A stretch of 43,867 nucleotides of DNA from an uncultured Bacteroidaceae bacterium (GTDB lineage: Bacteria; Bacteroidota; Bacteroidia; Bacteroidales; Bacteroidaceae). The translations under genes and the position numbers were made by a program. The stretch lies in NCBI GenBank assembly GCA_905234745.1, contig CAJOJD010000004.1, forward strand, positions 3,537-47,403, read 5' to 3'. Below are positions 4,442 to 41,246 of this stretch, piece after piece; position 1 is the first letter of the stretch, and each line of letters opens with the position of its first letter. Under the pieces are notes generated by a model. That model saw only the letters and a program-made list of their open reading frames with translations, made no database searches and was not told the DNA's origin.

Positions 4442-7400
4442 TTATTCCTCGTCGTCATACTTGGTTGACCAATCGTATGAACCCCAACCTGCAGGAGTAG
4501 AAGTAGGCTTGAAGATCATCTTGGCTGAGTGCTCAAGAGGATATCTTGTTGATGTGCCAGACTTGCTGACTACGGTTCCATTTACGTTGTTTGCGGTCTG
4601 GAACTTACCGGCAACAGACTTCTTTGAGCCGTTGTCAGCCTGGTCGGTCCAGTGCTGGAAAGCACCCTCGGTGATGTCGTCGGGCTTAACGGTAACTGTA
4701 ACGTTATCGGGCTGCTCCTTAACCTTGATCTGAACGGTAAACTTACCGCTGCCGTTGGTAACAACCTTGAATGTATTGCCGGCTACGGTTACGTCAGCAA
4801 GAGCATTGCTTGCGTTAACCCATGTCTCCTGTGCAGAACCTGACTTGAATACCTCGGCGGCCTTCTTGATGTTGCCCTCGATGGTAAGAGTCGTCTTCTC
4901 ATCGGCACCCCATACAGCCCAGCCGTAAAGGTCGGTCTCCCAGTTCTTGGGCATACCGTCAGCGTTGAAGATATAGTAGCGGGTTCCCTTCTCGTACCAG
5001 TTGCTTGAAGGATTGACGGTACCGTTGTCTTTGTATTTACCCTCAAGGTTCATTGTTGCATCTGAACCGGGGTTACGGAAGTGAACGAATGTGAGACCCA
5101 GATCCTCGATATCGAAGCTGCTGTTATCCCATGCTACTGCAAACTCGTCATCAGCAAACTGCTGGAGAACGTTGATTGTCCAGTTACCCTCGTTGTCGGT
5201 GGGAGCTACATAGGTGATGCCACCTGCGGTGATCTTGACGGGAAGGCTCTTGGCTGCCTCATAGTGACCTACGCGGAAACCATCCTCAACGGCAATCATA
5301 GCAGCACCTGTAACGGCCTTGGTTACATTGTAACCCTTCTTGTAGGCCCAGCCTGCAATGTCTGCTGAGTATTTATCCCAACCGTCCCAAAGCTCAGCCT
5401 TCTCAGCTGCGGTGGGCTCGAACTTATAATAAACAGTGCCAAGCTCGTTCCATGCTGCACCTTCTTCCTTAACGCTTGTGCCGGAATATGCACCCTCCAG
5501 AATCTTGGTCTTGCCGGAAGCGTTGATATAGTGCTTGAAGTTGTCAACATCTATGTCTGCGGCAGCAACATTGATGGTGGTCTCGTCACCTACGTTCTTG
5601 ATAGGAACATTGAACTGGAATACACCTGAGTTGTTTGCAAGAACGGCGATATCCTCAGTGTAGACGGTAAGCTTAACGAGCTGACCCTTGGCAGCCTTGT
5701 ACTCACCTGTCAGGAAACCGGTCTCCTCAGCCTTGAGGGCCTTACCTGATGCCTTGGCGGAATTCTGATAAACGACATCGTTACCATCGGCAGCTATAAA
5801 CCAGCCGGCCAGGTTGTCGTTATAAGTTGATGTGGCGTGATCCAGATCGGTATCATCGATGTACATGTACTGGGTACCCAGGTCGTTCCAAGCCTCCTGG
5901 GCTTCCTTGCTGTCATAAACAGTCTTGTAGATGGTGTACTTACCTGCAAGTAACTTAGTACCATCGTTGTTGTACTCGGGATAGTGCTTGAACTCGTTGG
6001 TTGTGTACTCATCGGAGGTGATGGCGATTGCGGGCTGGTCATTCTCATCCTTAAGAGGAATCATGAAGTCATAAGCACCACCGGCCTTGGTCTTGATGGC
6101 GAAGTCACGGTTGTTGGTACCGTCATGAACGTTGACGATACGGGTCTGAGCTGCGTATTCACCTGTTCCGTAAGAAGTCTCGACTGCGAACAGGATCTTA
6201 CCCTTAACCTGAACGGGCTTGTTAAACTCTGAACTTCTGTACCAACCAATCAGGTCAGCATTCCACTCGCCGGGCTGCTCGGTACCGTCGGGATTGTACT
6301 TGAAGTAGAAGTCACCAAGTTCATACCACTGGGCACCATCGGCCTTGATCTGAGTGTGGTCGTCGTACTTACCCTCGCGGAGTACGGTTGTCTTGCCTTT
6401 TGAATCGATGAAGTTGAAGGGCTGAACCTCCTCGGCCAGCTCAACAGCAAAGTTGATGGCGTTGTCATCCTGAACGGGGATATCTACGCTGAAGTTACCC
6501 TGTGCGTCGGTGATAACGGTAAGACCATTGTTGTAAGGAGCGGCAGCGGTCAGAACGATTGTCTGAGGCTCGTTGCGGTAAGCACCCTCGCCGAATGATG
6601 AGAGATAAGGCATGTAAACCTTACCGGTCAGGGTAGCGGTCTTTGAGTAAGACTCATCGAAACCGGCCATACCTGCTGCCCAACCAATCAGGTTGTCATC
6701 CCAGTTGTCGGGAACTGCGTTGGCGGCATCGGTTACACCTGCATTATAATAAGGTGTGAACAGAAGGTTCTGTGCGCCCAGGTTGTAGGTTACACCCTCA
6801 ATGATGTTGGCAAAGTTGAGACCGCCTACACCACCGGTGTTACCAAAGTTCATCAGCTGGTATGCACCGTATACCTTAACGGTTGTTGAGTCTGTGTCGT
6901 AGTGTGTGAACTGGCTGTCACCGATACCCAGAACCTTGAGGTCTGTGATATGGAAACCGTCGGCAAGAGACTTGACGGGCAGAGTGATTGAGTAGTTACC
7001 CTGTGCATCGGTTACGGTACCGAACTTGAGCTCGAGAGCAGCGGGTGTGCCGTAGTCGTAAACAACGGTGAACTCAACGGTAGCCTTGCTGGCAGCCTTG
7101 AAGGCACCCTTGCGGAAACCTGTCTCATAAGCCAGGTTAACCTTACCGGTCATTGTTACGTTGTTTGAGAACTGGTCAACGTCAATCTTCTCGCTCTGGT
7201 AAACGATCTCCTCGGGGAACTTGAATGCTCCGGGCTTAAGAGCGTTGGCAGCTACGTTGAAGTGGTAGTTGCGGAGTTCTGTCTTGAATACGGGTTTGCC
7301 GTCGGCACCCATCTTCTCATAAGTGCGATAAACATCGGTGAACTCCTCCATACGGATGACGGCGTTGATACCGGTGCTCTTGGTGGGGATGGTGATGCTG

Positions 7401-7699
7401 AACTTACCAGTCTCATCGGTTACTGTCTCAAAAATCTTGTTGCCGGCAGCGGCAGCAGCTGAATACTGGTTGTAAGGAACCTCAATGAATACCTTACGGC
7501 CTGATGCAGGCTTTGAGTTGATGATAGAATAGCTTGTGGCATTGACGTCGACGCCAGTGCTGTAAGTTACTGTAGCGGAGATTGTAACCTCCTGCTTTAC
7601 AGAGTCCATGTTGAACTCTGACTGTTCCTGCTGAGAGCATGATGCTCCGAACAGAATGAATGCAACCAATGAGGCTGCTCCAAACAGTTTCTGTTTCAT
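4442..7699 (-). CDS. Large surface lipoprotein with about seven degenerate ~130-150-aa repeats
   Basis: Likely start at 7699 (MKQKLFGAASLVAFILFGASC, lipobox then Cys). Repeated pattern TGKV...ETGF..G.Y.AA...IP.K...F.HY....GKT..L.GKY....W.ELGT.Y..F......W..DL.GW. Confidence 0.8.
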   Translation of the reverse strand: MKQKLFGAASLVAFILFGASCSQQEQSEFNMDSVKQEVTISATVTYSTGVDVNATSYSIINSKPASGRKVFIEVPYNQYSAAAAAGNKIFETVTDETGKFSITIPTKSTGINAVIRMEEFTDVYRTYEKMGADGKPVFKTELRNYHFNVAANALKPGAFKFPEEIVYQSEKIDVDQFSNNVTMTGKVNLAYETGFRKGAFKAASKATVEFTVVYDYGTPAALELKFGTVTDAQGNYSITLPVKSLADGFHITDLKVLGIGDSQFTHYDTDSTTVKVYGAYQLMNFGNTGGVGGLNFANIIEGVTYNLGAQNLLFTPYYNAGVTDAANAVPDNWDDNLIGWAAGMAGFDESYSKTATLTGKVYMPYLSSFGEGAYRNEPQTIVLTAAAPYNNGLTVITDAQGNFSVDIPVQDDNAINFAVELAEEVQPFNFIDSKGKTTVLREGKYDDHTQIKADGAQWYELGDFYFKYNPDGTEQPGEWNADLIGWYRSSEFNKPVQVKGKILFAVETSYGTGEYAAQTRIVNVHDGTNNRDFAIKTKAGGAYDFMIPLKDENDQPAIAITSDEYTTNEFKHYPEYNNDGTKLLAGKYTIYKTVYDSKEAQEAWNDLGTQYMYIDDTDLDHATSTYNDNLAGWFIAADGNDVVYQNSAKASGKALKAEETGFLTGEYKAAKGQLVKLTVYTEDIAVLANNSGVFQFNVPIKNVGDETTINVAAADIDVDNFKHYINASGKTKILEGAYSGTSVKEEGAAWNELGTVYYKFEPTAAEKAELWDGWDKYSADIAGWAYKKGYNVTKAVTGAAMIAVEDGFRVGHYEAAKSLPVKITAGGITYVAPTDNEGNWTINVLQQFADDEFAVAWDNSSFDIEDLGLTFVHFRNPGSDATMNLEGKYKDNGTVNPSSNWYEKGTRYYIFNADGMPKNWETDLYGWAVWGADEKTTLTIEGNIKKAAEVFKSGSAQETWVNASNALADVTVAGNTFKVVTNGSGKFTVQIKVKEQPDNVTVTVKPDDITEGAFQHWTDQADNGSKKSVAGKFQTANNVNGTVVSKSGTSTRYPLEHSAKMIFKPTSTPAGWGSYDWSTKYDDEE

Positions 7700-7894
7700 A
7701 AAATTTTTTGTTTGTGAAAAATAGGTTGATATTGAAAACTTGTTTCTTATCGGAAATATATAGTCCATTTTTGTCTGGTCCTTTATGAATTTGTCCTATT
7801 GATTCGTCCTATTGAGCTGCAAAGTTAACAATTTATAATTATAACGTAATATTTATTTAGATTAATATATCTAATTGTTGAAAATTTTTTCCGA

Positions 7895-12909: not shown

Positions 12910-14169
12910 ATGAAGAGTATCAGATCATTCGTAATGGCAGCCGCAGTCCTGGCAGTCATTCCCGCAATGGCACAGAAATCAATTCCTCTGGTTTATGACC
13001 AGGAGTTTACAGGAGCCAAGTATCCTGCACCAGCTTTCCCCGCAGTCGAAGAGGCTACAAACCTGGAGACCCTGCCCAACCCGTTTGAGTTCTCAAACAG
13101 CAAGAAGCAGGTCAAGAAGTTCAAGGATTGGGAGAAACGTCGTGCAGAGATTGTACGCGAGCTCCAGCACTACGAGATAGGTGAGAAGCCTATGATAGGC
13201 AAGGAGAACATCGAGGCATCTCTTGAGAACAACACCCTGACCGTCAAGGTTACCCGTAACGGTGAGACTCTTGAGCTTTCAGCCAGGATTACCTATCCGG
13301 AGGGTGACGGCCCGTTCCCATTGATGATTGGTGCATCAAACAACGCCCTGCCGCGTCAGTTCTTCAGCGAGCGTAAGATTGCCCAGATGAATTTCAGCGA
13401 GCGTCAGGTAAACAGCTACTCACAGATGGGCGGCTTTGGCGGCGGCGAGCGTAAGGACGGCCGCGGTACATACGCGTTTGACAAGCTCTATCCCGAACTG
13501 GTAGACAACGGTGCATACTCAGAGTGGGCATGGGGTGTAAGCCGCCTCATTGACGGTCTGGAGATTGTAGGTGCTGCCAGCAAGATCGATATGAAGCACA
13601 TCGGTATAACCGGTTGCTCATATGCCGGTAAGATGGCTCTCTGGTCAGGCGCACTTGATGAGCGTATCGCCCTGACAATCGCTCAGGAGCCCGGTGGCGG
13701 TGGCGCTGCTGCATGGCGTGTTTCACAGACCCTTGGCAATGTGGAGAATCTGGGTAACACCGATAACCACTGGTTCAAGATCTCTATGTGGGACTGGAAG
13801 GAGGATAACGTATCAAAGCTTCCGTATGACCACCATGAGCTCTGCGCTCTGGTTTGCCCGCGTGCCCTCCTGGTACTGGGTAATACCGACTATGAGTGGT
13901 TGGCCGATGAGGCCGGTTACGTATCATGCGTAGCTGCCCGCGAGGTATGGAAGAAGTTCGGAATCGAGGACCGTATGGGATTCTCAATCCAGGGCAAGCA
14001 CGGACACTGCCAGCTCCCCCAGAGCCAGTATCCCGAGGTTGAGGCCTTCATTGACAAGTTCCTGCTTGGCAAGGAGGATGCCAACACCATCATCATGCAT
14101 GTTGACGAAACCCTGAAAGACAAGGAGGTCCAGAAGTGGATTCCCTGGGCACAAACCGGCTTCAAATAA
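12910..14169 (+). CDS. Secreted alpha/beta hydrolase, glucuronoyl-esterase (CE15)-like
   Basis: Signal peptide; nucleophile-elbow HIGITGCSYAGKMALWSGALDERIALTIAQEPGGGGAAAWR and NTDNHWF resemble CE15-like esterases. Confidence 0.7.
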   Translation: MKSIRSFVMAAAVLAVIPAMAQKSIPLVYDQEFTGAKYPAPAFPAVEEATNLETLPNPFEFSNSKKQVKKFKDWEKRRAEIVRELQHYEIGEKPMIGKENIEASLENNTLTVKVTRNGETLELSARITYPEGDGPFPLMIGASNNALPRQFFSERKIAQMNFSERQVNSYSQMGGFGGGERKDGRGTYAFDKLYPELVDNGAYSEWAWGVSRLIDGLEIVGAASKIDMKHIGITGCSYAGKMALWSGALDERIALTIAQEPGGGGAAAWRVSQTLGNVENLGNTDNHWFKISMWDWKEDNVSKLPYDHHELCALVCPRALLVLGNTDYEWLADEAGYVSCVAAREVWKKFGIEDRMGFSIQGKHGHCQLPQSQYPEVEAFIDKFLLGKEDANTIIMHVDETLKDKEVQKWIPWAQTGFK

Positions 14170-14195
14170 ATTGAAAGTTAGTCAAATACAGATAG

Positions 14196-14228
14196 GAGAT
14201 GGCTCTGACGGGCCATCTCTTTTTTTTG
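14196..14228 (+). terminator. Rho-independent terminator
   Basis: GAGATGGC-tctgacg-GGCCATCTC followed by a T-run. Confidence 0.75.
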
Positions 14229-14398
14229 TGTCCGGCTTATCGACATATTAATATAAATTAACATATACGTGAGGTATTTGCAAAAATTAATTTATAACTT
14301 TACGTATCTTAATAGGGTAGATTATAAGTACGCGTGTACTTAGTGCTGGAGAAGGGACTGTTTTATTGAATTGCCTAAACTATTATAACCAATTAATT

Positions 14399-14881
14399 AT
14401 GAGAAAATTCCTTTTTGCCTTAATGGCGTTGCTATTGACAACGTCAGTGGCAGTGCGTTCCCAGAACGTAATGGTTGTCCACCTGAAAACCGGCACGGTG
14501 GCAGAACTTGCTTTCAAGTACAAGCCGGTAATCACATTTACAGATACGGATGCGGTCCTCACCACCGTTGTCAACGGCAGGGAGGTGGTCGTAAGTTATC
14601 CGCTTGAAAAGCTGACTAAGTTTACCTTCGTGACAAAGGATCTGACTGCAGTCGAGGAGGTGGAGGAGCGTAACGTACAGTTCCTGATTGAGGACTACAC
14701 TGTAACCATAACCGGAGCCAAGCCTGATATAGTGGTCCGTCTGATATCATCGGACGGCAAACAGCTTGGTGCCTATAAGACCGATAAGGACGGCTCCGTA
14801 TCATTCAGCATTGCCGACCTTGCCAACGGCACATACATTATTGCATCAGAAGACATTACCTTTAAAATTTTGAAGAAATGA
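14399..14881 (+). CDS. Small secreted protein with possible T9SS type A-like C-terminal domain
   Basis: MRKFLFALMALLLTTSVAVRSQ signal peptide; C-terminus IVVRLISSDGKQLGAYKTDKDGSVSFSIADLANGTYIIASEDITFKILKK resembles type A sorting domains. 4-bp ATGA overlap with the next gene. Confidence 0.5.
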   Translation: MRKFLFALMALLLTTSVAVRSQNVMVVHLKTGTVAELAFKYKPVITFTDTDAVLTTVVNGREVVVSYPLEKLTKFTFVTKDLTAVEEVEERNVQFLIEDYTVTITGAKPDIVVRLISSDGKQLGAYKTDKDGSVSFSIADLANGTYIIASEDITFKILKK

Positions 14882-17800
14882 AACATATAAAATCAATTAT
14901 CAGACTGGCAGCGTTATTGCTGGTTATGGTCTGTGCCCAGTCTGTGAAGGCACAGCAGACCTATATAATGGTTCACAAGGTTGACGGCACCGTCCTGAGG
15001 ATTGCCGTAGCTGATGTTGACAGCGTTACGTTCCGCGAGTGGACAGGACCTGTAGTATCATACGATTATGTTGACATGGGTCTGAAAGTCATGTGGGCTT
15101 CCTGCAATATCGGAGCCACCAGCCCGGAGCAGTTCGGTAGCTATTTTGCCTGGGGTGAGACCGCTCAGAAGAATGAATATACCGAGGCTAATTACAAGTG
15201 GTATGATGCCACCGGAGCAGTGCTGAAGTACAACATCTTCAAGAGTCTGGGCAGTGTCGATATGAAATACCGCCTTGACGCCGATGATGATGCCGCTCAC
15301 GTATTGCTGGGTGAAGGATGGCGAATGCCTACACCGGCTGATTTCAATGATCTTTTCATGAATTCGGAGGTTTCATTGACTGAACAGAACGGTGTACGCG
15401 GTCTTAGTTTTACCAGTGATATAAACGGCAACAGTATTTTCCTGCCGTTGGCCGGCGAGTTCTGGAAGGGTGACACAATAGGAACAAGTCAATATGCCTA
15501 TTATTCAACAAATACCTTGATTTGCTCCAAGCAGAATGATCCCGGCTGGATATACAGCCTTTATTACGGTGAAAGAAACGGAAAACCTACATACGGTTTC
15601 TCATCTTATAACAGGGTAGGCGGACTGCCAATCCGTCCTGTATACTCACCCAATACCACATTCGATGGCAATGTGTTGGTAGTTAAGGGAATAGTTATGG
15701 GACAGGATTCCATCACACTTAAGGCAGGAGAATACACCTGGATGGATGCATACGTTGACAGTAACGATGATATTTATCTGACACCTGAGTTCACATCAAG
15801 CGATGATTCAGTTGCAACTGTCGACGCAGACGGTAAGGTAGTTGCAGTTTCTGCCGGTGAATGTATAATAACTGTTTCATGGGGTGATTACTCAGCAACC
15901 TGTGTGGTAACGGTTAATGCAATTGTTCCCGCCACCAATGAACCTGTAGATCTGGGTCTCAGCGTCAAGTGGGGTAGCCTTAACCTTGGTGCAGTCAACG
16001 AGGAGGACTTCGGCGGTTTTTATGCCTGGGGTGAACTGACAGAGAAAGAATACTATTACTGGGACAGCTATAAGTGGGTAGGTGAGAATTATTTATTTAC
16101 CAAGTACAATTTTTATGCTGAGGATGGTGTAGTCGACATGAAGTATCGCCTTGATTTGGAGGATGATGTCGCATATAAGCTGTTGGGTGATAATTGGCGA
16201 ATGCCTACTGACGAGGAATTTGAGGAACTCCTCTATAATTGCTCATGGGAGGTTGAGGAAGTGAACGGCGTGAAAGGCTTCAGAGTTACAAGCCTTTTGA
16301 ACGGCAACAGCATTTTCCTGCCCCTGACAGGTGAAAAGTGGGGATACGATCATAATATGAAGAATTACGCTTTCTACTCTACCAATACCATGTCTGTAGA
16401 TGAAGGTGATGCGTCTTATGTCAGGGCTGTGTATATGAATTACAATGAATACGGATATGACAATTATTATCTGACAGGTTACAGAAGATCAGGTGGTCTT
16501 GCCATTCGTCCGGTCTATACGACTGATACATATGAAAATGTCATAGAGATCTCCAATCTCTGGATTGAGGAATCAATATCAATTGAAACCGGTGAGAGTT
16601 ACTGCATTAATGCAGGCTTTGACGCCAATTCAAATAATTATCCGCAATTAAGATGGAAATCGTCCGATGAAAGCGTAGCCACAGTAAACAGTTATGGTAC
16701 CGTTACCGGTAAATCTCAGGGAACCTGTATCATTACCGCTTCAATAGGAAATGAATCCGTACAATGTGCTGTTTCAGTAACCGAATTCGTTCCTGTCATG
16801 GAGTCTGTGGATTTGGGCTTGTCTGTGGAGTGGGCTACATGTAATGTGGGCGCTTCAAGACCCGAATTTACCGGTAGAATGTATGCTTGGGGTGAAACGG
16901 AAACCAAGGATGAGTTCTCTAGAGACAATTACAAATTGTGGTCAGACAGTACAGGTTATACAAAGTACAATCAGATTGACGGCAAGACCGTACTTGATCC
17001 TGACGATGACGTTGCCAGCGTACAGTGGGGTGATGGATGGAGAATGCCTACATATGAGGAATTTGTAGAATTGGTTGAAAACTGTTCTTTTGAATTTACC
17101 GATATAAACGGTCTGTACGGTTTGTTGGTAACAAGTTATATCAACGGTAACAGCATTTTCCTGCCCAACCATTCTGATTACGGTGAGCCGGTTTACTGGA
17201 GCAGTACCCTCTCAAAGGAATCAACAGCCAAAATACTCTATAATGATAGTCCTTATTATAGTGATGATCGTGCTGACGGTCTGCAGATACGTCCCGTACG
17301 GTTGTCAAAGAATTATACCGAACTGACCCTGAGTGACGATACACTGGAAATTTACGAGGGACAGAGTTATACACTCACAGGTAAGATATATGGCCAGGAA
17401 TTGGACGGAGATAATCTGACATGGAAATCAAGTGATGAATCCGTAGCTCTGGTTAATAACGGTGAAGTAACAGGCGTTGCAGCCGGTACAGCCATCATTA
17501 CAGCCCGTCTGGATTCAACCAAAGCCGATACCTGCTTTGTGACAGTCCTTGGACGTGAGCCTTTTGACAGGTTGGTAGACCTGGGCTTAAGCGTCAGATG
17601 GGCTTCATGCAATGTGGGCGCATCTTATCCGGAGCAGTTCGGCGAATATTATGCCTGGGGCGAGACAGAACCATATTATACAGGTTCATACAGAAATCCC
17701 GTTTGGAAAGACGGAAAAGAGAACGGTTACTCATGGTATTCAAACAAGTATGCTGTAGTTGACTCGTTGGATAACACATGGCTGACCAAGTACAATGAGT

Positions 17801-20800
17801 TCGAAAAGATAGGTCTGGACGGCTTTGTTGATAAGAAGACTGTTCTGGATGCTGCCGATGATGCTGCCAGTGCCAACTTAGGCGGTTATTGGCGTACTCC
17901 TACCAGTGCCGAGTTCAAGGAACTGATGGACAAATGTAACTGGGAATGGACCGAAATGTACGGTGTAGAAGGTTACCTGGTAACAAGTGCAATAGCGGGT
18001 TATGAGAACAATTCGATTTTCCTGCCGTACAGTGGAGATTTCTGGGAAACAGAAGTTGAGGAGTATGACGGCGCATTCTATTGGACAAGTTCACTTTATT
18101 CAGGTACAAGCAAGGCCGCAGAATACTTCTCCTTAGGTAATATTGCAATCGATGCATACTATCGCTTTGTGGGAGGTAGCGTACGTCCTGTTCTGGGATA
18201 CGACCTGGAGGATGTGAAGGATCTCTCTATCAGCCGTAGCGAGTTGCCTCTTGCATTGAATTCTTCATATAAGATTGAAGTAAACGCTCTCAATGCTGCC
18301 GGAACGGTTATTGATGTTGCAGGAGGACTGAGAACTTCATGGACATCGGATGATGAAAGCGTAGCAACTGTTCAGGATGGCATCGTAACGGCAGTAGGTG
18401 CCGGTATCTGTATCATTACGGCTAACGTAAGAGATCATTCAATAGAATGTCTTGTAACAGTTGAGGATCCCTCTCAGGCTGAACCTGAATCAGTTGATCT
18501 GGGCTTGAGCGTAAAATGGGCTACATTCAATGTAGGATCGTTCGCTCCTGAAATGATTGGTGATTTCTTTGCATGGGGTGAGGTTGAGCCTTATTATGAG
18601 GCCGGCTATGCCGAATCGGCCGATCCTGTCTGGAAGGACGGTAAGTCTGAAGGTTATGCATGGCCTTCATATCAATGGGCAGAGCTGGTTGATTCAGCGT
18701 CAGGCAATTATACCGTAACCAAGTATGCAAAGGATGGCAAGACCGTTCTCGAAGATGCCGATGATGCGGCTATTCAGGCTTGGGGCGGTAAATGGCGTAT
18801 GCCGGATACCGATGAGTTCAGGGAACTGATGTATCTGTGTGACTGGGAATTTGTGGTTGTGAATGGAGTTAAGGGCTACAGGGTAACCAGTAAAATAGAT
18901 GGTTATACCGACAAGTCCATTTTCCTTCCTCTGACAAATTCCCGTTCAGGGTCAAAATTTAATTCTGATTCAGAAGGATACTATTGGTCACGCAATGTGA
19001 ATGAAGGTAATTCAATAACTGCCTGGTATCTTTATATAGATGAGGGCTATCAGTCAGTATGGAACTACTATCGTTATCAGGGTAGGACTGTCCGTCCTGT
19101 ATGTCCGTCTGACAGCTGGCAGGGAATTACAGCTATAGATCTTGACTCAACGAGTATTTCCATTGCATTAGGAACCACCGATAACTTGACTTATTCAATA
19201 CATAGCGGAAACCATGATTACAGTTTCCTGAGGCCGACAGGTTGGAAGTCAAGTGATGAGAATGTGATCACCGTTGATGCTGACGGCACGCTGCATCCCA
19301 TTAAGGAAGGCTCAGCAACCATTACAGCCTACTATAATGAGTTGACGTCCGAGTGTGTAGTTACCGTAAAGAAACTGTCGGAGATTGATCCTGAACAGGC
19401 TCTGGAGGTTTATAATGCAATGTATACCCAGCTTGGTAAGCCTATGAGCTGCGGTTACGACAAGCCTGATGATTATGGACTTATAATGATTGCCTACAGT
19501 ACTGATATTGAGGCATCGGATATGTTCCTGCCCAATACCGGTTATAACTGGTTCAGTGTATGCGGCGAACTGTCGTCCAGAAACATCAGTTATCGTAACG
19601 GTGTCATAAGGTATAATGCATGCTATAATGTCATTAAGGCTGCAAACCAGGTGCTGTGTTCATACGATGAAAACAGCAGCAATCCTGAGGTTCAGGCCAA
19701 GATAGGTGAGGCCTATGCAATCCGTGCATTCGCTTATCTGAATCTTGCACCTTATTATCAGGTAAGCTACACATCATCGGCTGAAGCAAAGAATCTGCTT
19801 TGTGTACCTATTCTTACTCCTGATACCCCGGATCCAAGCAATAATCCCAGAGCAACGCTTCAGGAGGTTTATGACCTGATTCTTTCTGATCTGGGCACGG
19901 CTATTGAGAAGCTGGACGGTTGGAAGCGTAGTGACAAATCCAGAATTGACCAGCAGGTTGCATATGGATTACGTGCACGCGCATATCTGAACATGGGATT
20001 ATGGAGCCAGGCTGCAGACGATGCCGAAGCTGCTTTGGACGGATATGAACCCGCTTCAATATCGGATGTTTCCACTCCGTTCCTTTATGATCTCAGTGAA
20101 TCCAACTGGATGTGGGGATATGATATGACCGAAGAAATTGCCGATCTTTTCTCCTACGCTACTTCATCGGCATGGCTGCGTTCATTCTCCGGCAATGGAT
20201 ATTCAACCGGTTGTCAGACATACACCATGATCAATTCAGACCTTTATGACCTGATTCCTTCAACCGATGTCCGTAAGGGTTGGTGGGTGAATGAGAATCT
20301 CACCTCACCGTTGCTGAACAGACTGGTTTGGGATGATCTTAAAGGACAGGAGATAGCATCAGAAGTCATTGGCGGTACAAAGGAACAATTCCTTCCTTAC
20401 ACTAATGTCAAGTTCGGTATGAAGTATCCGGGTAATAAAGCTAATGATGAGGACTGGTGCTGGATGAGAGCCGAGGAGATGATTCTTATCATGGTTGAGG
20501 GATTGGCCAAGAGCGGTCATGCAGAAGATGCCAGTGATATGCTGACATACTTTGTCCAGCAATATCGTGATCCCAGTTATGATATTGAAGGTCGCGGTCT
20601 TTCTCTTGAGGATGAGATCTGGTTCCAGCGCAGAGTCGAGTTGTGGGGTGAGGGATTCTCCAACAACGATCTCCGTCGTCTGAACAAGCCTCTGGTTCGT
20701 TTCCACGAGTACAAGGAGAACAACTGTCCTGCCGGTTTCCGCAGGAACATGAGCGCCGATAACGGATGGTGGTTGATGCGCTTCCCGACAGCGGTAATTA

Positions 20801-20889
20801 ACCAGAATCCTGCTCTCGTGAATAACGATGGCGGTTACCAGCCTGAGGATGGTAACGATGAAGGCCTCCTTGATGGAATAACCGACTGA
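14878..20889 (+). CDS. Giant modular secreted protein: five FISUMP-like/Big2 repeat units plus C-terminal SusD/RagB-like domain
   Basis: Repeats VDLGLSVxWAxxNVGAxxPExxGxYYAWGE...WRMPTxxEFxEL...NSIFLP...VRPV alternate with Big2-like TWKSSDESVATVxxxGxVTGxxxGxxIITA. The C-terminal ~500 aa shows SusD hallmarks (AKIGEAYAIRAFAYLNLAPYYQV, WMRAEEMILIMVEGLAKSGHA, WFQRRVELWGEGFSNNDLRRL, LMRFPTAVINQNP). Confidence 0.8.
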   Translation: MKHIKSIIRLAALLLVMVCAQSVKAQQTYIMVHKVDGTVLRIAVADVDSVTFREWTGPVVSYDYVDMGLKVMWASCNIGATSPEQFGSYFAWGETAQKNEYTEANYKWYDATGAVLKYNIFKSLGSVDMKYRLDADDDAAHVLLGEGWRMPTPADFNDLFMNSEVSLTEQNGVRGLSFTSDINGNSIFLPLAGEFWKGDTIGTSQYAYYSTNTLICSKQNDPGWIYSLYYGERNGKPTYGFSSYNRVGGLPIRPVYSPNTTFDGNVLVVKGIVMGQDSITLKAGEYTWMDAYVDSNDDIYLTPEFTSSDDSVATVDADGKVVAVSAGECIITVSWGDYSATCVVTVNAIVPATNEPVDLGLSVKWGSLNLGAVNEEDFGGFYAWGELTEKEYYYWDSYKWVGENYLFTKYNFYAEDGVVDMKYRLDLEDDVAYKLLGDNWRMPTDEEFEELLYNCSWEVEEVNGVKGFRVTSLLNGNSIFLPLTGEKWGYDHNMKNYAFYSTNTMSVDEGDASYVRAVYMNYNEYGYDNYYLTGYRRSGGLAIRPVYTTDTYENVIEISNLWIEESISIETGESYCINAGFDANSNNYPQLRWKSSDESVATVNSYGTVTGKSQGTCIITASIGNESVQCAVSVTEFVPVMESVDLGLSVEWATCNVGASRPEFTGRMYAWGETETKDEFSRDNYKLWSDSTGYTKYNQIDGKTVLDPDDDVASVQWGDGWRMPTYEEFVELVENCSFEFTDINGLYGLLVTSYINGNSIFLPNHSDYGEPVYWSSTLSKESTAKILYNDSPYYSDDRADGLQIRPVRLSKNYTELTLSDDTLEIYEGQSYTLTGKIYGQELDGDNLTWKSSDESVALVNNGEVTGVAAGTAIITARLDSTKADTCFVTVLGREPFDRLVDLGLSVRWASCNVGASYPEQFGEYYAWGETEPYYTGSYRNPVWKDGKENGYSWYSNKYAVVDSLDNTWLTKYNEFEKIGLDGFVDKKTVLDAADDAASANLGGYWRTPTSAEFKELMDKCNWEWTEMYGVEGYLVTSAIAGYENNSIFLPYSGDFWETEVEEYDGAFYWTSSLYSGTSKAAEYFSLGNIAIDAYYRFVGGSVRPVLGYDLEDVKDLSISRSELPLALNSSYKIEVNALNAAGTVIDVAGGLRTSWTSDDESVATVQDGIVTAVGAGICIITANVRDHSIECLVTVEDPSQAEPESVDLGLSVKWATFNVGSFAPEMIGDFFAWGEVEPYYEAGYAESADPVWKDGKSEGYAWPSYQWAELVDSASGNYTVTKYAKDGKTVLEDADDAAIQAWGGKWRMPDTDEFRELMYLCDWEFVVVNGVKGYRVTSKIDGYTDKSIFLPLTNSRSGSKFNSDSEGYYWSRNVNEGNSITAWYLYIDEGYQSVWNYYRYQGRTVRPVCPSDSWQGITAIDLDSTSISIALGTTDNLTYSIHSGNHDYSFLRPTGWKSSDENVITVDADGTLHPIKEGSATITAYYNELTSECVVTVKKLSEIDPEQALEVYNAMYTQLGKPMSCGYDKPDDYGLIMIAYSTDIEASDMFLPNTGYNWFSVCGELSSRNISYRNGVIRYNACYNVIKAANQVLCSYDENSSNPEVQAKIGEAYAIRAFAYLNLAPYYQVSYTSSAEAKNLLCVPILTPDTPDPSNNPRATLQEVYDLILSDLGTAIEKLDGWKRSDKSRIDQQVAYGLRARAYLNMGLWSQAADDAEAALDGYEPASISDVSTPFLYDLSESNWMWGYDMTEEIADLFSYATSSAWLRSFSGNGYSTGCQTYTMINSDLYDLIPSTDVRKGWWVNENLTSPLLNRLVWDDLKGQEIASEVIGGTKEQFLPYTNVKFGMKYPGNKANDEDWCWMRAEEMILIMVEGLAKSGHAEDASDMLTYFVQQYRDPSYDIEGRGLSLEDEIWFQRRVELWGEGFSNNDLRRLNKPLVRFHEYKENNCPAGFRRNMSADNGWWLMRFPTAVINQNPALVNNDGGYQPEDGNDEGLLDGITD
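15070..19380 (+). repeat. Five ~0.8-0.9-kb coding repeat units within the 14878..20889 gene
   Basis: Units begin with V-D-[LM]-G-L near 15070, 15946, 16807, 17575 and 18493; each is followed by a Big2-like segment. Confidence 0.8.
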
Positions 20890-20898
20890 TACGATGTC

Positions 20899-20936
20899 AA
20901 AAAAATGACCGCTCAACCGAGCGGTCATTTTTTTTT
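20899..20936. terminator. Bidirectional rho-independent terminator between convergent genes
   Basis: AAAAAAATGACCGCTC-AACC-GAGCGGTCATTTTTTTTT; A-run and T-run flank a perfect stem. Confidence 0.85.
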
Positions 20937-20941
20937 GTTTG

Positions 20942-21970
20942 TTATTGTTGTGGAGGTAAGTTGTCCACGTAGTCTTTGATTGCGATGGCGGCGGCGCGGG
21001 CGTCGTTGACTGAATCCCAGATTGACATGGGGCGCTTGCATGTGCCGGCTGCAAACAGGCCGGGTTTGCCGGTGTCGTTGTCATACAGGTGCGGGGCTAC
21101 GGTCTTTATGAAACCGTAATCACCGCTTATTCCGCAGGCCTGTCCCAAGGTCTTGGTGCCGCATGATGCCTCCATACCTACCATAAGTACCAGAAGGTCG
21201 GTCGTCATCTTGAGCGGCAGGCCCATCAGGGTGTCCTCACTCTTAAGCTGGACACGGCCGTCGAACGTGCCTGCAGCCTCCGATATGCGTCCGCGTACAA
21301 AGCTTACGCCGTATTTCTCCTGGGCTGTGCGGTACATCTCCTCAAAGCCCTGGCCCCACATACGCAGGTCCATATAGAAGACCGATGCCTCGCATTTGGG
21401 CAGTTGCTTGCGCACCTCGATTGCCTGCTTTACGGCTGTCACGCAGCATATCTTGGAGCAGTAGTGGTTACCGCTCTTCTCGTCACGTGAGCCTACGCAC
21501 TGCAGGAATGTAACGCGCTTGGGCTCATCGCCGTTGGCGTTCAGGATCTTGCCGTGCTTGATCATCTGCTCCATATCCAGGGATGTGATTACACCTTTGT
21601 AGATGCCGTATCCGAGTTCCTCCTTGCGGTGGGCGTCAAATACCTGATAGCCGGTGGCAACGAGTACTGCATCGGCCACGTAGGTCTGGCCTTTGGCGTC
21701 TATGAGTTTCCACTCGGTACCCTGCCATTTGATATCGGCAATGTCAACTCCGAATGCGGTGGTGATGCCGTCGGTGAGCAGTTTGCCGCTCAGGTCATCG
21801 GCAATCTCCTGTGCTGCCTGGAAATTGGGGAACAGGAACGCCTTGTCCTGGATATTCTTGAGCGGAGTCTCTGATTTCTCAAAAAGAGTGACTTCAATAC
21901 CGTTTTTGGCCAGTATTGATGCGGCCTCTATGCCGGCGGGGCCGGCGCCTATTATTGCGACTTTTCTCAT
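20942..21970 (-). CDS. HdrA-like FAD-dependent oxidoreductase (short form)
   Basis: VAIIGAGPAGIEAASILAKNG FAD motif; LQCVGSRDEKSGNHYCSKICCVTAVKQA is the HdrA/QmoA-type Cys motif. Confidence 0.75.
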   Translation of the reverse strand: MRKVAIIGAGPAGIEAASILAKNGIEVTLFEKSETPLKNIQDKAFLFPNFQAAQEIADDLSGKLLTDGITTAFGVDIADIKWQGTEWKLIDAKGQTYVADAVLVATGYQVFDAHRKEELGYGIYKGVITSLDMEQMIKHGKILNANGDEPKRVTFLQCVGSRDEKSGNHYCSKICCVTAVKQAIEVRKQLPKCEASVFYMDLRMWGQGFEEMYRTAQEKYGVSFVRGRISEAAGTFDGRVQLKSEDTLMGLPLKMTTDLLVLMVGMEASCGTKTLGQACGISGDYGFIKTVAPHLYDNDTGKPGLFAAGTCKRPMSIWDSVNDARAAAIAIKDYVDNLPPQQ

Positions 21971-21977
21971 AATCGGT

Positions 21978-23030
21978 TTACACTAACAGGTTTTCGGGTT
22001 TCTCGGGAGCACGCAGTATCTTGCCGTCGGCCGTTCTGTATTTGGCCTTGGGATCATACGGTATGCCTATCTTGTCAAGCAGGCGCTCGCACTGCACCTG
22101 GTGTATCTGGAGGCCTAACTCCCACGGGTCATATCCCAGCAGCAGTCCGGCCATTTCTTCATAGGTCAGGACGGGTATGCCATAGCCCTCACGGTCATAG
22201 GTCTTGTGCTCCATCTCGGCGATGGTATACTGCCAGCGGTCCAGGAACATGGAGCAGCCGGGGCAGTTGGATACTATGAAATCGGGCTCGTAGGGCTCCA
22301 TTGACTCCAGTTTCTTCTTGGTGTTGGATACTGAGTATCCGCGGTTCTCCTGAACCAGGTACTGGCGGAATCCGAATCCGCAGCAGTGACGGCGCTCGGG
22401 ATAATCCACAACCTCTCCGCCCCAGGCCTCGATCATACCGGCCAGAACGTAGGGGAACTCGGCCTTGCCCACACCCTTATCGGGGAATATCTTGGCGTAG
22501 TGGCAGCCTATGTGCTCAACTACCTTAAGAGGACGGCCGGTAAAGCGGTTTACCAGACGGTATTTCATCTTCTGGGCCAACTCATTGCGGAAATGATATA
22601 TCACGTCCGACGGGTGGGCGATATTTTTTGGTATGTTGAACTCGCGCTTGCAGGCCTTGTAGAGGTTCTCACGGGTCTTTTCCAAGAGCTCGGGGTGCTC
22701 CTGCCACATATGGCACATCTCGGTGAATACTCCGAATGATGTTACGCATGACGGTACGTAGTTCTCATAGCCGTGCTCGGTCATGAGTGAGAACAGGCGG
22801 GCCACCACTGTCATAGTGGTCTCCAGTGGTACCACATCGGTATGGTATCCTATGCCGGTGCAGGTGTGCTGACGGAAATCATCAAAGATATCCTTGTTCA
22901 ACTCTTCACGGAGCATACGCAGGAATGCGGTCTCAGAGCCCGGGAAAAAGGTCTGACGGATGCAGCTGCGCTCATAGAAGTAGTGGTCATCAGCTATGGC
23001 TTTCTGATATTCGTTCCAAAAACGGTTCAT
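21978..23030 (-). CDS. HdrB-like CCG-domain protein
   Basis: Heterodisulfide-reductase-related CCG motifs: HIGCHYAK...RRHCCGFGFRQYL...FIVSNCPGCSMFLD. Confidence 0.75.
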   Translation of the reverse strand: MNRFWNEYQKAIADDHYFYERSCIRQTFFPGSETAFLRMLREELNKDIFDDFRQHTCTGIGYHTDVVPLETTMTVVARLFSLMTEHGYENYVPSCVTSFGVFTEMCHMWQEHPELLEKTRENLYKACKREFNIPKNIAHPSDVIYHFRNELAQKMKYRLVNRFTGRPLKVVEHIGCHYAKIFPDKGVGKAEFPYVLAGMIEAWGGEVVDYPERRHCCGFGFRQYLVQENRGYSVSNTKKKLESMEPYEPDFIVSNCPGCSMFLDRWQYTIAEMEHKTYDREGYGIPVLTYEEMAGLLLGYDPWELGLQIHQVQCERLLDKIGIPYDPKAKYRTADGKILRAPEKPENLLV

Positions 23031-23037
23031 AATCTTG

Positions 23038-24993
23038 TCAGTTTATAAGGTTCTCTGCCACAATCTCGGCTATATCCCTTACAGGATAGTCACTGGTGGC
23101 ATGCTGGAACGCTTTCTTACACATAGGGCAGGCGGTTGCTATGGCATCGACCGGCTTGCTGGTAAGATTCTCAAGTGATGCGTTCCTTATTTTGGTCTGC
23201 TGCTCAATGCTGAGTTTGGTATCGCCCAGATTGAATCCGCAGCATACGCTCTTTTCACGCTGATAGCGTGTTTTCTGCAGGTTGGTCACGGCACTGAGCA
23301 CATTGCGCGGCTCATCATAGATTCCGCAGCCGCGGCCCAGCTCGCACGGGTCATGATATGATACCTTACGGTCATCGTGACGTACCTTGAGGCGTCCCTG
23401 CTTAATCAGCATGTCTATGTACTCGGTGTGGTGAACCACCGGTATGTTCAGATTGTACTCCTTCTTGAATGACTGGTAGCAGATAGGGCAGGAGGTTACC
23501 AGCATGGTGGCCCCTGATTTCTCTATCAGGTCCGTGTTCTTGCGGCGCAATTCGGCAGCCTGTGTGGTGAATCCCTGCTGCTGCAGCGGACGGCCGCAGC
23601 ATATGGTGGCCAGCTTGTCCATGTACCAGTATTTCTGGCCGGCAGCGGTGAATATGCGCTCCATGGACTCGGTTATGCCGGGAGTAAGATGTGACATACA
23701 TCCTCCAAAGTAAGCCACACGGCCTATGGCGTTGAACGGAGTCTGTTTCTTGTCCAGATATACGTAATTGCCGGTGGTATCAATTGCTCCCTTGGCGCGA
23801 GTCTGACGGCGCAGGGCGCTCAGGTCTATGCCTACCGGGCAATCGACCGTGCATCGGTCACACATAAGACAATTGTCGGCAATCATTTTAAGACGGCTGC
23901 CGCGCTCCTGATTGCGCAGGCTGCGGATAAGATATACGGACTGGATCTCATGGTTCTCAAGTACCTTGTCTATGGGACAGCCCGATATGCACACTCCGCA
24001 ACGTGAGCAGGCGTTGAGCTCAAACAGTGTGTAGCCGGTCTTGGCGGTCTCCTCACGGACGCCTATCTTACGGAAGTAAATAAGAAGCAACTCGGTAAAG
24101 ATATGCATGTAGCGTGTGAACGGCATGGTTACAAAGAACACGCCCAGCATGAGCGAGTAGAGCATCCATACCGATGTCTCCATGCCGCGTACAATCATGG
24201 GGTCGAACAGATTACCCACTGCCTGGGTAAAGAATCCTCCGTTACCGTACAGACATGCCGTAATGGACTCGGCAAGCAGTCGCATGGGGAATATCATCCA
24301 CAGCGAGAACTTGGAGAACCTATCTATGATGGTATGCTTGGTTGTACGGCGCATTCCCAGTATCTTGGACCAGAATATCTTGATGAATGCCATCGTAAGG
24401 CCCAGGAATACGTACAGCAGCAGCGCGTCCATAAGGTCGGAGTAGGCCTTGTGCTGACGGAAGGATGCCGGTGCCTTGTGTACGAAGTAGCGGTAGAATA
24501 TGCCTACGTAGAACGGGCGGTGATAATGGATTCGGGCTATACCGTCCTCAGTCTCAACACGGTAACGACGCTGATTGAGGTATTCCGGGTTCTTGTCCTG
24601 ACCTGTGTTGTAAATGTGCCAGCCGTTCTGCTGCTGCAGTTCATGTACAGCCTCTATTGACTGCTCGTGCTGCATGGTGTAGAAGGCGTCACGGCTCTCT
24701 ACGGCACCCACCACAATCAGCAGGAACCAGCCTAAGGCAAATGCCTGGTGCATGATACCAAGCAGCAGGTTTTTCTTAAGGATGCGGGCGTGCAGAAGAC
24801 CCTCGCGGAACATCTCCCAGATGGCTGGGAATATCTTCCAGGAGTACCAGTTGCTGCGAATAACCTTACGCTGCTCCGGGCTGAACTTGCGGATCCAGCG
24901 TATGTACTTGTAGATGATGATGGCAAACAGCAGTACCGTACCGATAAGGAACGGTATCACAAAGTCATTATACGGATATGCGTGTATCTTCAT
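23038..24993 (-). CDS. Membrane-bound HdrD/HdrE-like fusion: TM N-terminus, two 4Fe-4S motifs, CCG domains
   Basis: N-terminal TM segments; CSRCGVCISGCPIDK and CLMCDRCTVDCPVGI ferredoxin motifs; VAYFGGCMSHL...TICCGRPLQQQG and VSYHDPCELGRGCG...VCCGFNLGDTK CCG motifs. Confidence 0.8.
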   Translation of the reverse strand: MKIHAYPYNDFVIPFLIGTVLLFAIIIYKYIRWIRKFSPEQRKVIRSNWYSWKIFPAIWEMFREGLLHARILKKNLLLGIMHQAFALGWFLLIVVGAVESRDAFYTMQHEQSIEAVHELQQQNGWHIYNTGQDKNPEYLNQRRYRVETEDGIARIHYHRPFYVGIFYRYFVHKAPASFRQHKAYSDLMDALLLYVFLGLTMAFIKIFWSKILGMRRTTKHTIIDRFSKFSLWMIFPMRLLAESITACLYGNGGFFTQAVGNLFDPMIVRGMETSVWMLYSLMLGVFFVTMPFTRYMHIFTELLLIYFRKIGVREETAKTGYTLFELNACSRCGVCISGCPIDKVLENHEIQSVYLIRSLRNQERGSRLKMIADNCLMCDRCTVDCPVGIDLSALRRQTRAKGAIDTTGNYVYLDKKQTPFNAIGRVAYFGGCMSHLTPGITESMERIFTAAGQKYWYMDKLATICCGRPLQQQGFTTQAAELRRKNTDLIEKSGATMLVTSCPICYQSFKKEYNLNIPVVHHTEYIDMLIKQGRLKVRHDDRKVSYHDPCELGRGCGIYDEPRNVLSAVTNLQKTRYQREKSVCCGFNLGDTKLSIEQQTKIRNASLENLTSKPVDAIATACPMCKKAFQHATSDYPVRDIAEIVAENLIN

Positions 24994-28161: not shown

Positions 28162-28164
28162 GCA

Positions 28165-28249
28165 AAAAGAGTACCATTGGGGTCAGACCCCAATGGTACT
28201 CTTTTCAAAAATGATACCAATGGGGTCTGACCCCAATGGTACTTTTTTT
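28165..28249. repeat. REPIN-like pair of inverted palindromes with GGGGTCAGACCCC core
   Basis: 28165-28205 is a perfect 41-bp palindrome (AAAAGAGTACCATTGGGGTC-A-GACCCCAATGGTACTCTTTT). A second, imperfect, inverted copy covers about 28207-28249 (ATACCAATGGGGTCTGACCCCAATGGTAC). Together they fill the gap between the tatC and 28248..30029 stops. Confidence 0.85.
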
Positions 28250-33510: not shown

Positions 33511-33763
33511 GCGTTATCCCCCCCTGACCTTAGGGAGTCAGAACGCACGTAGGGCCATTTTTCTCCCTAAGGTGCGTAGGAAATACGCTCGTACCTGCGT
33601 TGCCCCCTGACCTTAGGGAGGTGGAACGCACGTAGGGCCATTCTCCTCCCTAAGGTGAGTAGAAAATACGCTCGTACCTGCGTTGCCCCCAGACCTTAGG
33701 GAGGTGGAACGCACGTAGGGCCATTTTCATCCCTAAGGTGAGTAGAAGGTACGTCGTCTCCCG
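33511..33763. repeat. Three tandem ~83-86-bp units, each with a CCTTAGGGAG/CTCCCTAAGG hairpin
   Basis: Units begin near 33511, 33597 and 33680 (GCGTT[AG][TC]CCCC...). Stem arms: 33527-33537/33563-33573, 33610-33621/33645-33656, 33693-33702/33730-33739. Confidence 0.85.
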
Positions 33764-38753: not shown

Positions 38754-41246
38754 TTAGAATTTTAGGGTTAAGTGTGCCAATGCTTGGAAGGGGGCGGCGG
38801 GAATGAAACCTATCTGATAGTAACGGTTGTCAGGGGTGAAGCCGTCTTTCTCATCAACTGCCGAGTAAACCCAGCCGCTTGTGGCAACACGGGCGTTAAG
38901 TACATTGTTAAAGTCAGCACCTATTACGATGCTCTTGAATGCTTTTTTCATGGGTATTGTGTATGAGAACGAGAGATCCGAGAGAGAGTAGGCGGGCAGT
39001 GAACGGTCGTTGTTGCCGGTGTTGTCAAGATACTGGCGGCTTACATAACCGGTGTGCCATGTTGCATTGAAATTACCGAAATACAGGTTTACGAATCCGT
39101 TCAGGATTACTGACGGAGAGAAAGCCAGAGGTGTCTTGCCCTTGTGGGGTATGGTGCGCAGCTTGTCGCCGTTGCCGTCAATGTGGTAATTCTGCTTGTA
39201 CTGGTCCATGTTGGGGTCATCGGCCGCATACTTGTCACGCCAGTCCTCTATGACCTCGTCAAAGTCGTTCAGGCAGTTCTCGCTGATGGCGGCGTTGCCC
39301 TCCAGTGACAGCCACTTGAGAGGCTGTACGGCAGCGGTGAGCTCTATGCCTGTGCGGTATGAAGACTTGATGTTGGTGGTCAGGTTCTCGCCTATGTCGC
39401 TCTTCATTCCGGTCTGTACGAACTGGTCCTTATAGTCCATGTAGTAGAGGTTGAATCCGGCGTTCCAGATATTGCCCTGGAAACTGTATCCTGCCTCATA
39501 GTCAATCATGTGCTCTGGAGTGGGAGCAGGGTAGGTACCGTTGTCGGTAAAGTTGTTGCGCTCGGGCTCACGGCCTGCGGTGGCTATGAGAGCATGCAGT
39601 TTGTGTCCTCCATTGATCCAGGTGAGGCCTGCCTTGGCGTTCAGGAAGTTGTATTTTTTATCAATGTCAAGGTTATGTTTTGAGGTGGTGCCGTCGGCAT
39701 TTACATAATAACGGTCGTTGTAACCGTCGGTCCTGTAACCTACGTGACGGTACTGGACATCGGCAAACGCATGGAGACTCTCAAGTATGTCATATCCGGC
39801 CTTGATGTATGCGCTCAGGTCATTCTTGGTGGCATCTGAGTCATAATAGGTGTCCAGGTTGTTTGCATAGACATACTCTCTCAGGGCATCATCCTTTATG
39901 TAAGGCAGGCGTCCGAAATGGTTGCCCTTGAACTGCTGTAACGATACGCCGCTGCGCAGGTCAAGACTGCCGGTCTTGTAAACATTGTTCCAGATAACGC
40001 CATAGGTGTGCTGCTCCAAACCTTTCTTGCGGACAAAATCGGTCTTCTTTACAGTGTCTGTCGCGTTGATCCAGGCAGGATCTCCATCGTCGTTCAGATT
40101 ATTTGAAAGGCCGTACTTGCTTACCTTGTTCTTGTATCGGAATTCCTCATAGTATCCGTAACCGTAGGTGTAGTGGGCTGTAAGAGATGTCGAGAAGGCA
40201 TCATTTACATTCCAGGCCAGTGACAGGATGTTGTGGTCCTGCCAGAAATTATCGGTAGTACGGTCCCAGTATGAGCCGTCTTTCATCTGGTAGCGGTGGG
40301 TGACGTACTTGCCGTCGGCATCCTGGACAAAGCACCAGTTGTCATCATCGTAATCCAGATACTCATACAGGCTGTTGTACTGGCCCAGTCCGGCGTTGTA
40401 CATATCCTTGTACTCCTTTATTCCGGTGTCGCCCAGATACATGCCGTCCATAAGGCTGGAGTCGTCGTTTCCGGCTGTGGCGCCGTTCCAGGCCTGGCCG
40501 GTGACCTCAAAGTTGCCTATGTTGCGGTAGCGGATCATGATGTTGTCCGATGGTGTCCAGAGCAGACCTGCGTAGTAGCTGCCGGACTTGCCTTGGGTTC
40601 CGTGCATGAATCCGTCGGTCTGCGTCATGTTGAATGCTCCGTCTATGATGAGGCTGTTTAGGATTGTTCCGGTTGAGAATGCACCACCCAGACGCAGGGT
40701 GTTGAATGATCCGTATGATGCTGTGAGTTCGGCACTCTTTTCAGGGTTGGGCAGCTTGCTGGTAAGTGCAACGGAGCCTCCGAATGCGCCGTCACCTACA
40801 GATGATGTGCCCAGACCGCGCTGTATCTGTGCGCTGCCCAGCAGTGATGCGTAACTGTTCATGTTGACCCAGAATACGCACTGGTCCTCGGGCGAGTTCA
40901 GGGCTACGCCGTCCAGGGTTACGTTGATTCGTGAATCGGCCGCACCGCGTATACGCATGTATGTGGTGCCGATGCCTGTTCCGTTCTCGCTCCATGATAT
41001 CACGCCGGGTGTGCGGGAGAACAGGAATGGCAGTTCACGGCCGCTCTTGGAGTAACTGTCAAGTTCCTGACGGCTGATGTCGGTGGTTGCAAACGGCTCG
41101 TTTTTATGGGCACGTACTCCGTTTATTACTACTTCGTTAAGCTGTTCAAGACGCAGGGAGTCTGCATCGGACACAAGGTTTTCCACATCGGCCTTTGCTG
41201 TAAGGCCTGTCATTAGGGTTAAGGACAAAAAAAATACCTTCTTCAT
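38754..41246 (-). CDS. TonB-dependent outer membrane receptor, probable thiamine uptake
   Basis: LEQLNEVVINGVRA (TonB-box-like), plug domain PFLFSRTPGVISWSENGTGIGTTYMRIRGAADSRINVTLDGVALN, C-terminal beta-barrel ending HLTLKF. Confidence 0.85.
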   Translation of the reverse strand: MKKVFFLSLTLMTGLTAKADVENLVSDADSLRLEQLNEVVINGVRAHKNEPFATTDISRQELDSYSKSGRELPFLFSRTPGVISWSENGTGIGTTYMRIRGAADSRINVTLDGVALNSPEDQCVFWVNMNSYASLLGSAQIQRGLGTSSVGDGAFGGSVALTSKLPNPEKSAELTASYGSFNTLRLGGAFSTGTILNSLIIDGAFNMTQTDGFMHGTQGKSGSYYAGLLWTPSDNIMIRYRNIGNFEVTGQAWNGATAGNDDSSLMDGMYLGDTGIKEYKDMYNAGLGQYNSLYEYLDYDDDNWCFVQDADGKYVTHRYQMKDGSYWDRTTDNFWQDHNILSLAWNVNDAFSTSLTAHYTYGYGYYEEFRYKNKVSKYGLSNNLNDDGDPAWINATDTVKKTDFVRKKGLEQHTYGVIWNNVYKTGSLDLRSGVSLQQFKGNHFGRLPYIKDDALREYVYANNLDTYYDSDATKNDLSAYIKAGYDILESLHAFADVQYRHVGYRTDGYNDRYYVNADGTTSKHNLDIDKKYNFLNAKAGLTWINGGHKLHALIATAGREPERNNFTDNGTYPAPTPEHMIDYEAGYSFQGNIWNAGFNLYYMDYKDQFVQTGMKSDIGENLTTNIKSSYRTGIELTAAVQPLKWLSLEGNAAISENCLNDFDEVIEDWRDKYAADDPNMDQYKQNYHIDGNGDKLRTIPHKGKTPLAFSPSVILNGFVNLYFGNFNATWHTGYVSRQYLDNTGNNDRSLPAYSLSDLSFSYTIPMKKAFKSIVIGADFNNVLNARVATSGWVYSAVDEKDGFTPDNRYYQIGFIPAAPFQALAHLTLKF

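Follow-up and report, generated by a model that had tools for sequence, protein, structure and literature searches.

A SusD domain behind a FISUMP/Big_2 array is coupled to a small gene with a type IX-like sorting domain: a possible two-gene surface-display cassette in an uncultured Bacteroidaceae bacterium

The window analyzed here is a stretch of 43,867 nucleotides from an uncultured Bacteroidaceae bacterium (GenBank assembly GCA_905234745.1, contig CAJOJD010000004.1, positions 3,537 to 47,403). It carries a gene for a 2003-aa protein that joins FISUMP and Big_2 units to a SusD domain (14878..20889, identified by its open reading frame (ORF), Pfam, and NCBIfam), preceded by a gene for a 160-aa partner protein (14399..14881); features lie on the plus strand unless stated otherwise. 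The large gene, whose small neighbor the initial annotation did not mention, proved to belong to a conserved cassette of two genes, the first of which is small and encodes a domain like the sorting domains of the type IX secretion system (T9SS). We propose that the locus is a T9SS-linked surface-display cassette whose cargo lacks a tail and ends in a SusD capture module that works independently of SusC, a reading for which we consider the chances evenly balanced.

A complete SusD/RagB domain occupies residues 1501-2003 (19378..20886). Pfam placed SusD-like_3 (PF14322) at residues 1565-1704 (E 1.1e-15) and SusD_RagB (PF07980) at residues 1841-1985 (E 6.7e-7), both above cut-off. The AlphaFold model of this region (predicted local distance difference test, pLDDT, 91.6; predicted template modeling score, pTM, 0.94) matched solved SusDs over its whole length, with 3snx as the top Foldseek match (E 1.6e-24, TMq 0.74). 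The PDB sequence match was again to 3snx (6.8e-28), and the nearest solved relatives are 3snx (BT_1439), 3lew, and RagB. The domain thus has the sequence profile and the whole-domain fold of its family, and lacks the lipobox Cys and the neighboring SusC. A lipidation Cys is present in all 26 free-standing SusDs examined (23 with the strict pattern, the other three with FSC, LPGC, or NSC) and in none of the fused SusD proteins. No SusC lies beside the fused gene in the window; the nearest TonB receptor is an 830-aa gene (38754-41246) approximately 18 kb away on the opposite strand, and the 1108-aa ORF at 4442-7768 gave no plug or barrel match.

The large ORF starts with ATG and runs through 2003 codons with zero internal stops. 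Its product comprises, in order, a Sec signal, a short hairpin, five FISUMP/Lcl_C units alternating with five Big_2 units, and the SusD domain. The signal peptide (residues 1-26; 14878..14955) ends in '...SVKAQ', followed by 'QTYIM', and contains no lipobox. The N-terminal hairpin motif (residues 27-55; 14956..15042), 'YIMVHKVDGTVLRIAVADVDSVTF', was recognized by alignment A6 and search. The protein ends in '...NDEGLLDGITD', and no C-terminal sorting domain of its own was detected by Pfam, NCBIfam, TIGR04183, or a C-terminal domain (CTD) profile derived from the partners. These results are in agreement with the initial annotation, which had described a SusD-like region at the C-terminus of the protein, a five-unit FISUMP/Big2 array, a signal peptide without an obvious lipobox, and no SusC nearby.

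The partner gene encodes a signal peptide, a small beta domain, a disordered linker, and a C-domain similar to T9SS type A CTDs. We chose the ATG at 14399 over the TTG at 14366 as its start because the relatives start there. The Sec signal of the family is a hydrophobic N-terminal helix ending in SQN or AQN in nearly all relatives. AlphaFold modeled two beta domains separated by the disordered linker, namely an N-domain with six predicted strands (residues 21-81; 14459..14641) and a C-domain with pLDDT near 95 (residues 93-160; 14675..14878). TIGR04183 was matched by 44 of 48 partner relatives (best 1.2e-9) and PF18962 by 28 of the 48. Foldseek aligned the C-domain with the CTD of RemA (8gl6_D, probability 1.00, TMt 0.68), as well as with the RemZ CTD (8gl8_D) and 5hfs, each as a single-domain match. 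Gly-120 and Lys-156 are invariant in all 48 relatives; one highly conserved Lys also characterizes type A CTDs (PMC10994853), to which Lys-156 is likened by description and not by residue alignment. At the level of the family, the partner C-domain resembles a T9SS type A sorting domain. WD-40 and designed-propeller PDB matches of the partner profile consisted of many tiny matches and were discarded as repeat artefacts.

The stop codon of the partner and the start codon of the large gene overlap in the sequence ATGA (14878..14881). An intrinsic terminator with a 12-pair stem and T tail (14194..14221) closes the upstream glucuronoyl-esterase gene and forms the left border, and a strong one with a 16-pair stem (20899..20934) closes the pair on the right; partner and fused gene are a bicistronic unit with terminators on both flanks. 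Among distinct full-length partners whose loci were fetched, 53 of 60 have a next gene on the same strand, in 52 of the 53 within 25 bases. The exact 4-base overlap occurs in 41 of 60 partner genes, compared with 42 of 670 other neighboring pairs (Fisher p 2e-29, a test that counts related sequences, which are not independent). The large proteins of these cassettes almost never bear a T9SS-type tail: TIGR04183 matched one of 40, weakly, and the partner-derived CTD profile matched two of 40 at E < 0.001, one of them (L096) clearly at its own C-terminus.

Relatives were sought in 150 related genomes with the SusD part as query, and the per-genome counts rest on such genome searches. The survey proposed in the initial annotation found fusions of the same kind, as long frames of 854-1587 aa, in five further genus genomes (G005, G009, G020, G025, G026), a genus of uncultured Bacteroidaceae from ruminant and other herbivore guts, according to named contigs and a six-row partner alignment search. 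Three further fused frames were found outside the genus (G046, G048, G087). The FISUMP/Big_2 part always precedes SusD in the genus fusions, and three of the five extend further at the C-terminus; in G046 and G048 SusD comes first and is followed by about 600 aa, and in G087 it stands behind a BACON domain. No SusC was found beside the fused genes of any of these relatives. A secreted protein of 150-170 aa precedes every fused gene on the same strand, in the genus with the 4-base ATGA overlap.

At least one match to the partner profile occurs in 33 of 37 genus genomes, and none was found in plasmid records. The genes that follow a partner are diverse, including FISUMP arrays, SusD fusions, C10 protease with leucine-rich repeats (LRR), transglutaminase with LRR, DUF4886 (SGNH-like) hydrolase, Cthe_2159 domain proteins, an alkyl-sulfatase-like enzyme, and unknowns. 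Several genus genomes hold a conserved operon in the order VTC domain, DUF4956, outer-membrane-like protein, partner, and Cthe_2159-like protein (L143, L146, L148, L149, L150), the domains having been checked in L143 only. In G032 (L132-L136), several contigs end within near-identical partner genes, which suggests multi-copy partners that break the assembly and possibly a recent duplication of the cassette.

The genome of the window encodes SprA on contig 12. In the family outside the genus, a full-length partner was found in 26 of 35 T9SS-positive and in none of 19 T9SS-negative genomes (p 4e-8), an association that shared ancestry and the CTD portion of the partner profile inflate. G046 and G070 gave no SprA match but were counted as positive because they have GldM, and for that reason were not taken as evidence against a T9SS link. 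The absence of GldM in genomes lacking SprA was checked in four (G037, G038, G044, G089).

The T9SS-type sorting domain of the partner suggests a surface route for a large protein that has no lipobox. Both products would reach the periplasm through Sec and signal peptidase I and could associate there, perhaps via their similar N-terminal hairpins. Most likely, the partner tail would then engage SprA/PorV, and both proteins would cross the outer membrane by way of SprA. At the surface, the FISUMP/Big_2 array may form an adhesive stalk, tipped by a SusD that would capture its ligand without a SusC. More tentatively, and with somewhat less confidence than for the locus itself, we suggest a split type IX signal, in which a widespread, translationally coupled family of 150-170-aa proteins would provide the sorting domain in trans to interchangeable tail-less passengers. 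SusDs would have been captured repeatedly as such passengers and, once lids of transporters, would have become free binding modules at the surface.

Besides the confounding of the T9SS association, several observations weigh against this display cassette. The partner of the window itself matches TIGR04183 with E 0.0015 and 18.4 bits, under the curated cut-off of 23, and no Foldseek match of its C-domain reached an E below 0.001. The likeness between the first hairpin of the partner and the N-terminus of the large proteins is a weak link (hhalign probability 49%, E 1.7e-4). Seven of the 60 partner genes have no downstream gene on the same strand. Large proteins with the N-terminal hairpin that lack both an adjacent partner and a tail of their own also exist, one being a 417-aa hairpin protein without CTD on contig 10 of the same genome (L152:1465-2718). 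The idea that hairpin proteins without a neighboring partner bear their own tail was not borne out by the CTD-profile search; such proteins would need a partner acting from elsewhere or have a different role.

The FISUMP proteins with hairpin and without adjacent partner or tail, together with the partners that have no downstream gene, would suit an explanation in which the partner is simply a small T9SS cargo of the usual kind, coupling serves co-expression only, and the large protein acts as a binding protein either in the periplasm or after secretion on its own. We consider this explanation less likely: the coupling is kept across very different large proteins, several of which (C10 protease-LRR, adhesin-like arrays) are expected to be extracellular. 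Moreover, the apparent case of a partner alone in G029 (L166 / L065) shows a partner followed by a decayed large-gene remnant with a stop in the hairpin region, that is, a cassette whose passenger has been lost.

A tree of 35 SusDs requires at least four changes to the fused state; SusD entered partner cassettes at least four times, and the fusion is not a singleton. The SusD of the window is sister (100/100) to a SusC-paired SusD on contig 12 of its own genome, with 62-64% identity, and the other fusions of the genus cluster with paired SusDs from G025 and G026. A single origin of the six genus fusions with later drift was rejected by the approximately unbiased (AU) test, at a cost of 351 log units (p 5e-60). 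The operon on contig 12 comprises SusC (L036), SusD, an 808-aa protein without Pfam match, and a subtilisin-like protease. A SusD copied from the SusC-paired line of its own genome probably retains the same ligand class, and the operon that the paired copy shares with a subtilisin-like protease makes a peptide or protein at least as likely a ligand as a glycan. The first suggestion, an orphan module on a stalk that binds a glycan or peptide, remains the best functional guess, an incomplete one with regard to the partner, the recurrence of the fusion, and the paired SusD.

The close identity to the paired SusD of the same genome and the retention of the full SusD fold could also mean that the fused SusD still serves the SusC of that paralogous locus (G000 contig 12) as a trans-acting lid; it would then be an alternative subunit for substrate binding, extended by an adhesive part. 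We regard this as improbable. Here, a Big_2 stalk takes the place of the lipid anchor and the roughly 45-residue N-terminal leader of paired SusDs, and the fused SusD of G009 belongs to a different branch than the paired SusD of that genome, whose gene neighborhood is the same as in the genome of the window.

The fused proteins are under purifying selection. The ratio of nonsynonymous to synonymous substitutions (dN/dS) was approximately 0.22 for G026 versus G020, and 0.14-0.16 for more distant fusion pairs and approximately 0.17 for the fused versus the paired SusD of the window, synonymous sites being near saturation in the latter two comparisons. The genome assembly is incomplete (80% complete, 4.45% contamination), but an artefact of assembly or binning, or a fused gene in decay, has next to no probability and, as an account of the architecture class, is already refuted, with the architecture repeated in five other genus genomes, which excludes an assembly join, the 6-kb frame intact, and dN/dS well below 1.

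The array that precedes SusD was delimited by Pfam (Big_2, E 1.5e-32; Lcl_C PF07603, the family that covers the FISUMP units, E 1.2e-20 and 74.4 bits against a cut-off of 34.9) and NCBIfam (FISUMP TIGR02145, E 1.4e-10 and 42.1 bits against a cut-off of 41.65). Unit positions were anchored on the VDLGL and RPV motifs, giving FISUMP starts at residues 65, 357, 644, 900, and 1206 and Big_2 cores near 305, 593, 849, 1155, and 1456. The first FISUMP/Lcl_C unit spans residues 65-265 (15070..15672) and is followed by Big_2 unit 1 at 266-350 (15673..15927). The second pair covers residues 351-556 (15928..16545) and 557-643 (16546..16806), the third 644-812 (16807..17313) and 813-893 (17314..17556), and the fourth 894-1110 (17557..18207) and 1111-1203 (18208..18486). 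FISUMP/Lcl_C unit 5, the top match to both families, lies at residues 1204-1415 (18487..19122), and Big_2 unit 5 at 1416-1500 (19123..19377) leads into the SusD domain. Identity between units is only 36-50% for FISUMP and 29-40% for Big_2, which indicates an old array without recent tandem expansion; a simple tandem-repeat expansion was ruled out by a near-empty Tandem Repeats Finder result in the gene and by units <50% identical.

Just upstream of the bicistron, with a terminator between, lies a gene for a secreted glucuronoyl-esterase-like protein (12910-14169; PF22244, 2.5e-65). Downstream, HdrA-, HdrB-, and Fe-S/CCG-type genes resemble parts of a heterodisulfide reductase (20942-24993) and adjoin the cassette in several genus genomes. 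The site beside the HdrA-like gene holds SusD-ended proteins in the window and in G025, FISUMP arrays with other ends in G002 and G011, and a partner without a following gene in G006 and G007. Elsewhere in the window, a 43-bp unit with hairpin-like symmetry occurs in two intergenic copies (28163-28248), and an 83-bp tandem repeat of 2.7 copies lies between two minus-strand genes (33520-33747).

Should the tail work in trans, recognition of T9SS substrates by their own C-terminal domain would no longer be the full rule, and lists of cargo compiled by CTD searches would overlook the actual passengers (proteases, adhesins, SusDs), whose genes directly follow that of a small tail protein. SusD would then also be a stand-alone binding module, captured repeatedly and independently from transporter loci. 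A CTD supplied by a separate gene was not described in the literature searched, many subscription papers being outside its reach.

Compared with the SusDs of SusCD and RagAB systems, the SusD of the window shares the complete fold; in contrast to them, it has no lipobox and no SusC neighbor, and sits at the C-terminus of a 2003-aa protein behind a FISUMP/Big_2 stalk. Legionella Lcl, which recognizes sulphated glycosaminoglycans on eukaryotic cells (PMC11162425), has the Lcl_C/FISUMP domain in common with the large protein and its five units. Unlike Lcl, the large protein has these units in alternation with Big_2 and no collagen-like region. The partner shares a Sec signal, a type A-like CTD, and the conserved Lys with T9SS type A cargo of the RemA, RemZ, and gingipain type. 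In known type A cargo, CTD and passenger are on one polypeptide (PMC4804311, PMC10994853), whereas the window has the tail on a 160-aa protein encoded separately from the tail-less large protein. The nearest idea to a split between tail and passenger comes from the TANFOR proteins of Bacteroidetes, whose neighborhoods are rich in T9SS substrates and whose delivery and passenger parts are sometimes encoded by adjacent genes and proposed to interact, as with the separate toxin genes beside TANFOR genes (PMC7073777). The cassette gave no TANFOR match in the families searched and differs in that its separate gene carries the CTD-like tail and precedes the passenger.

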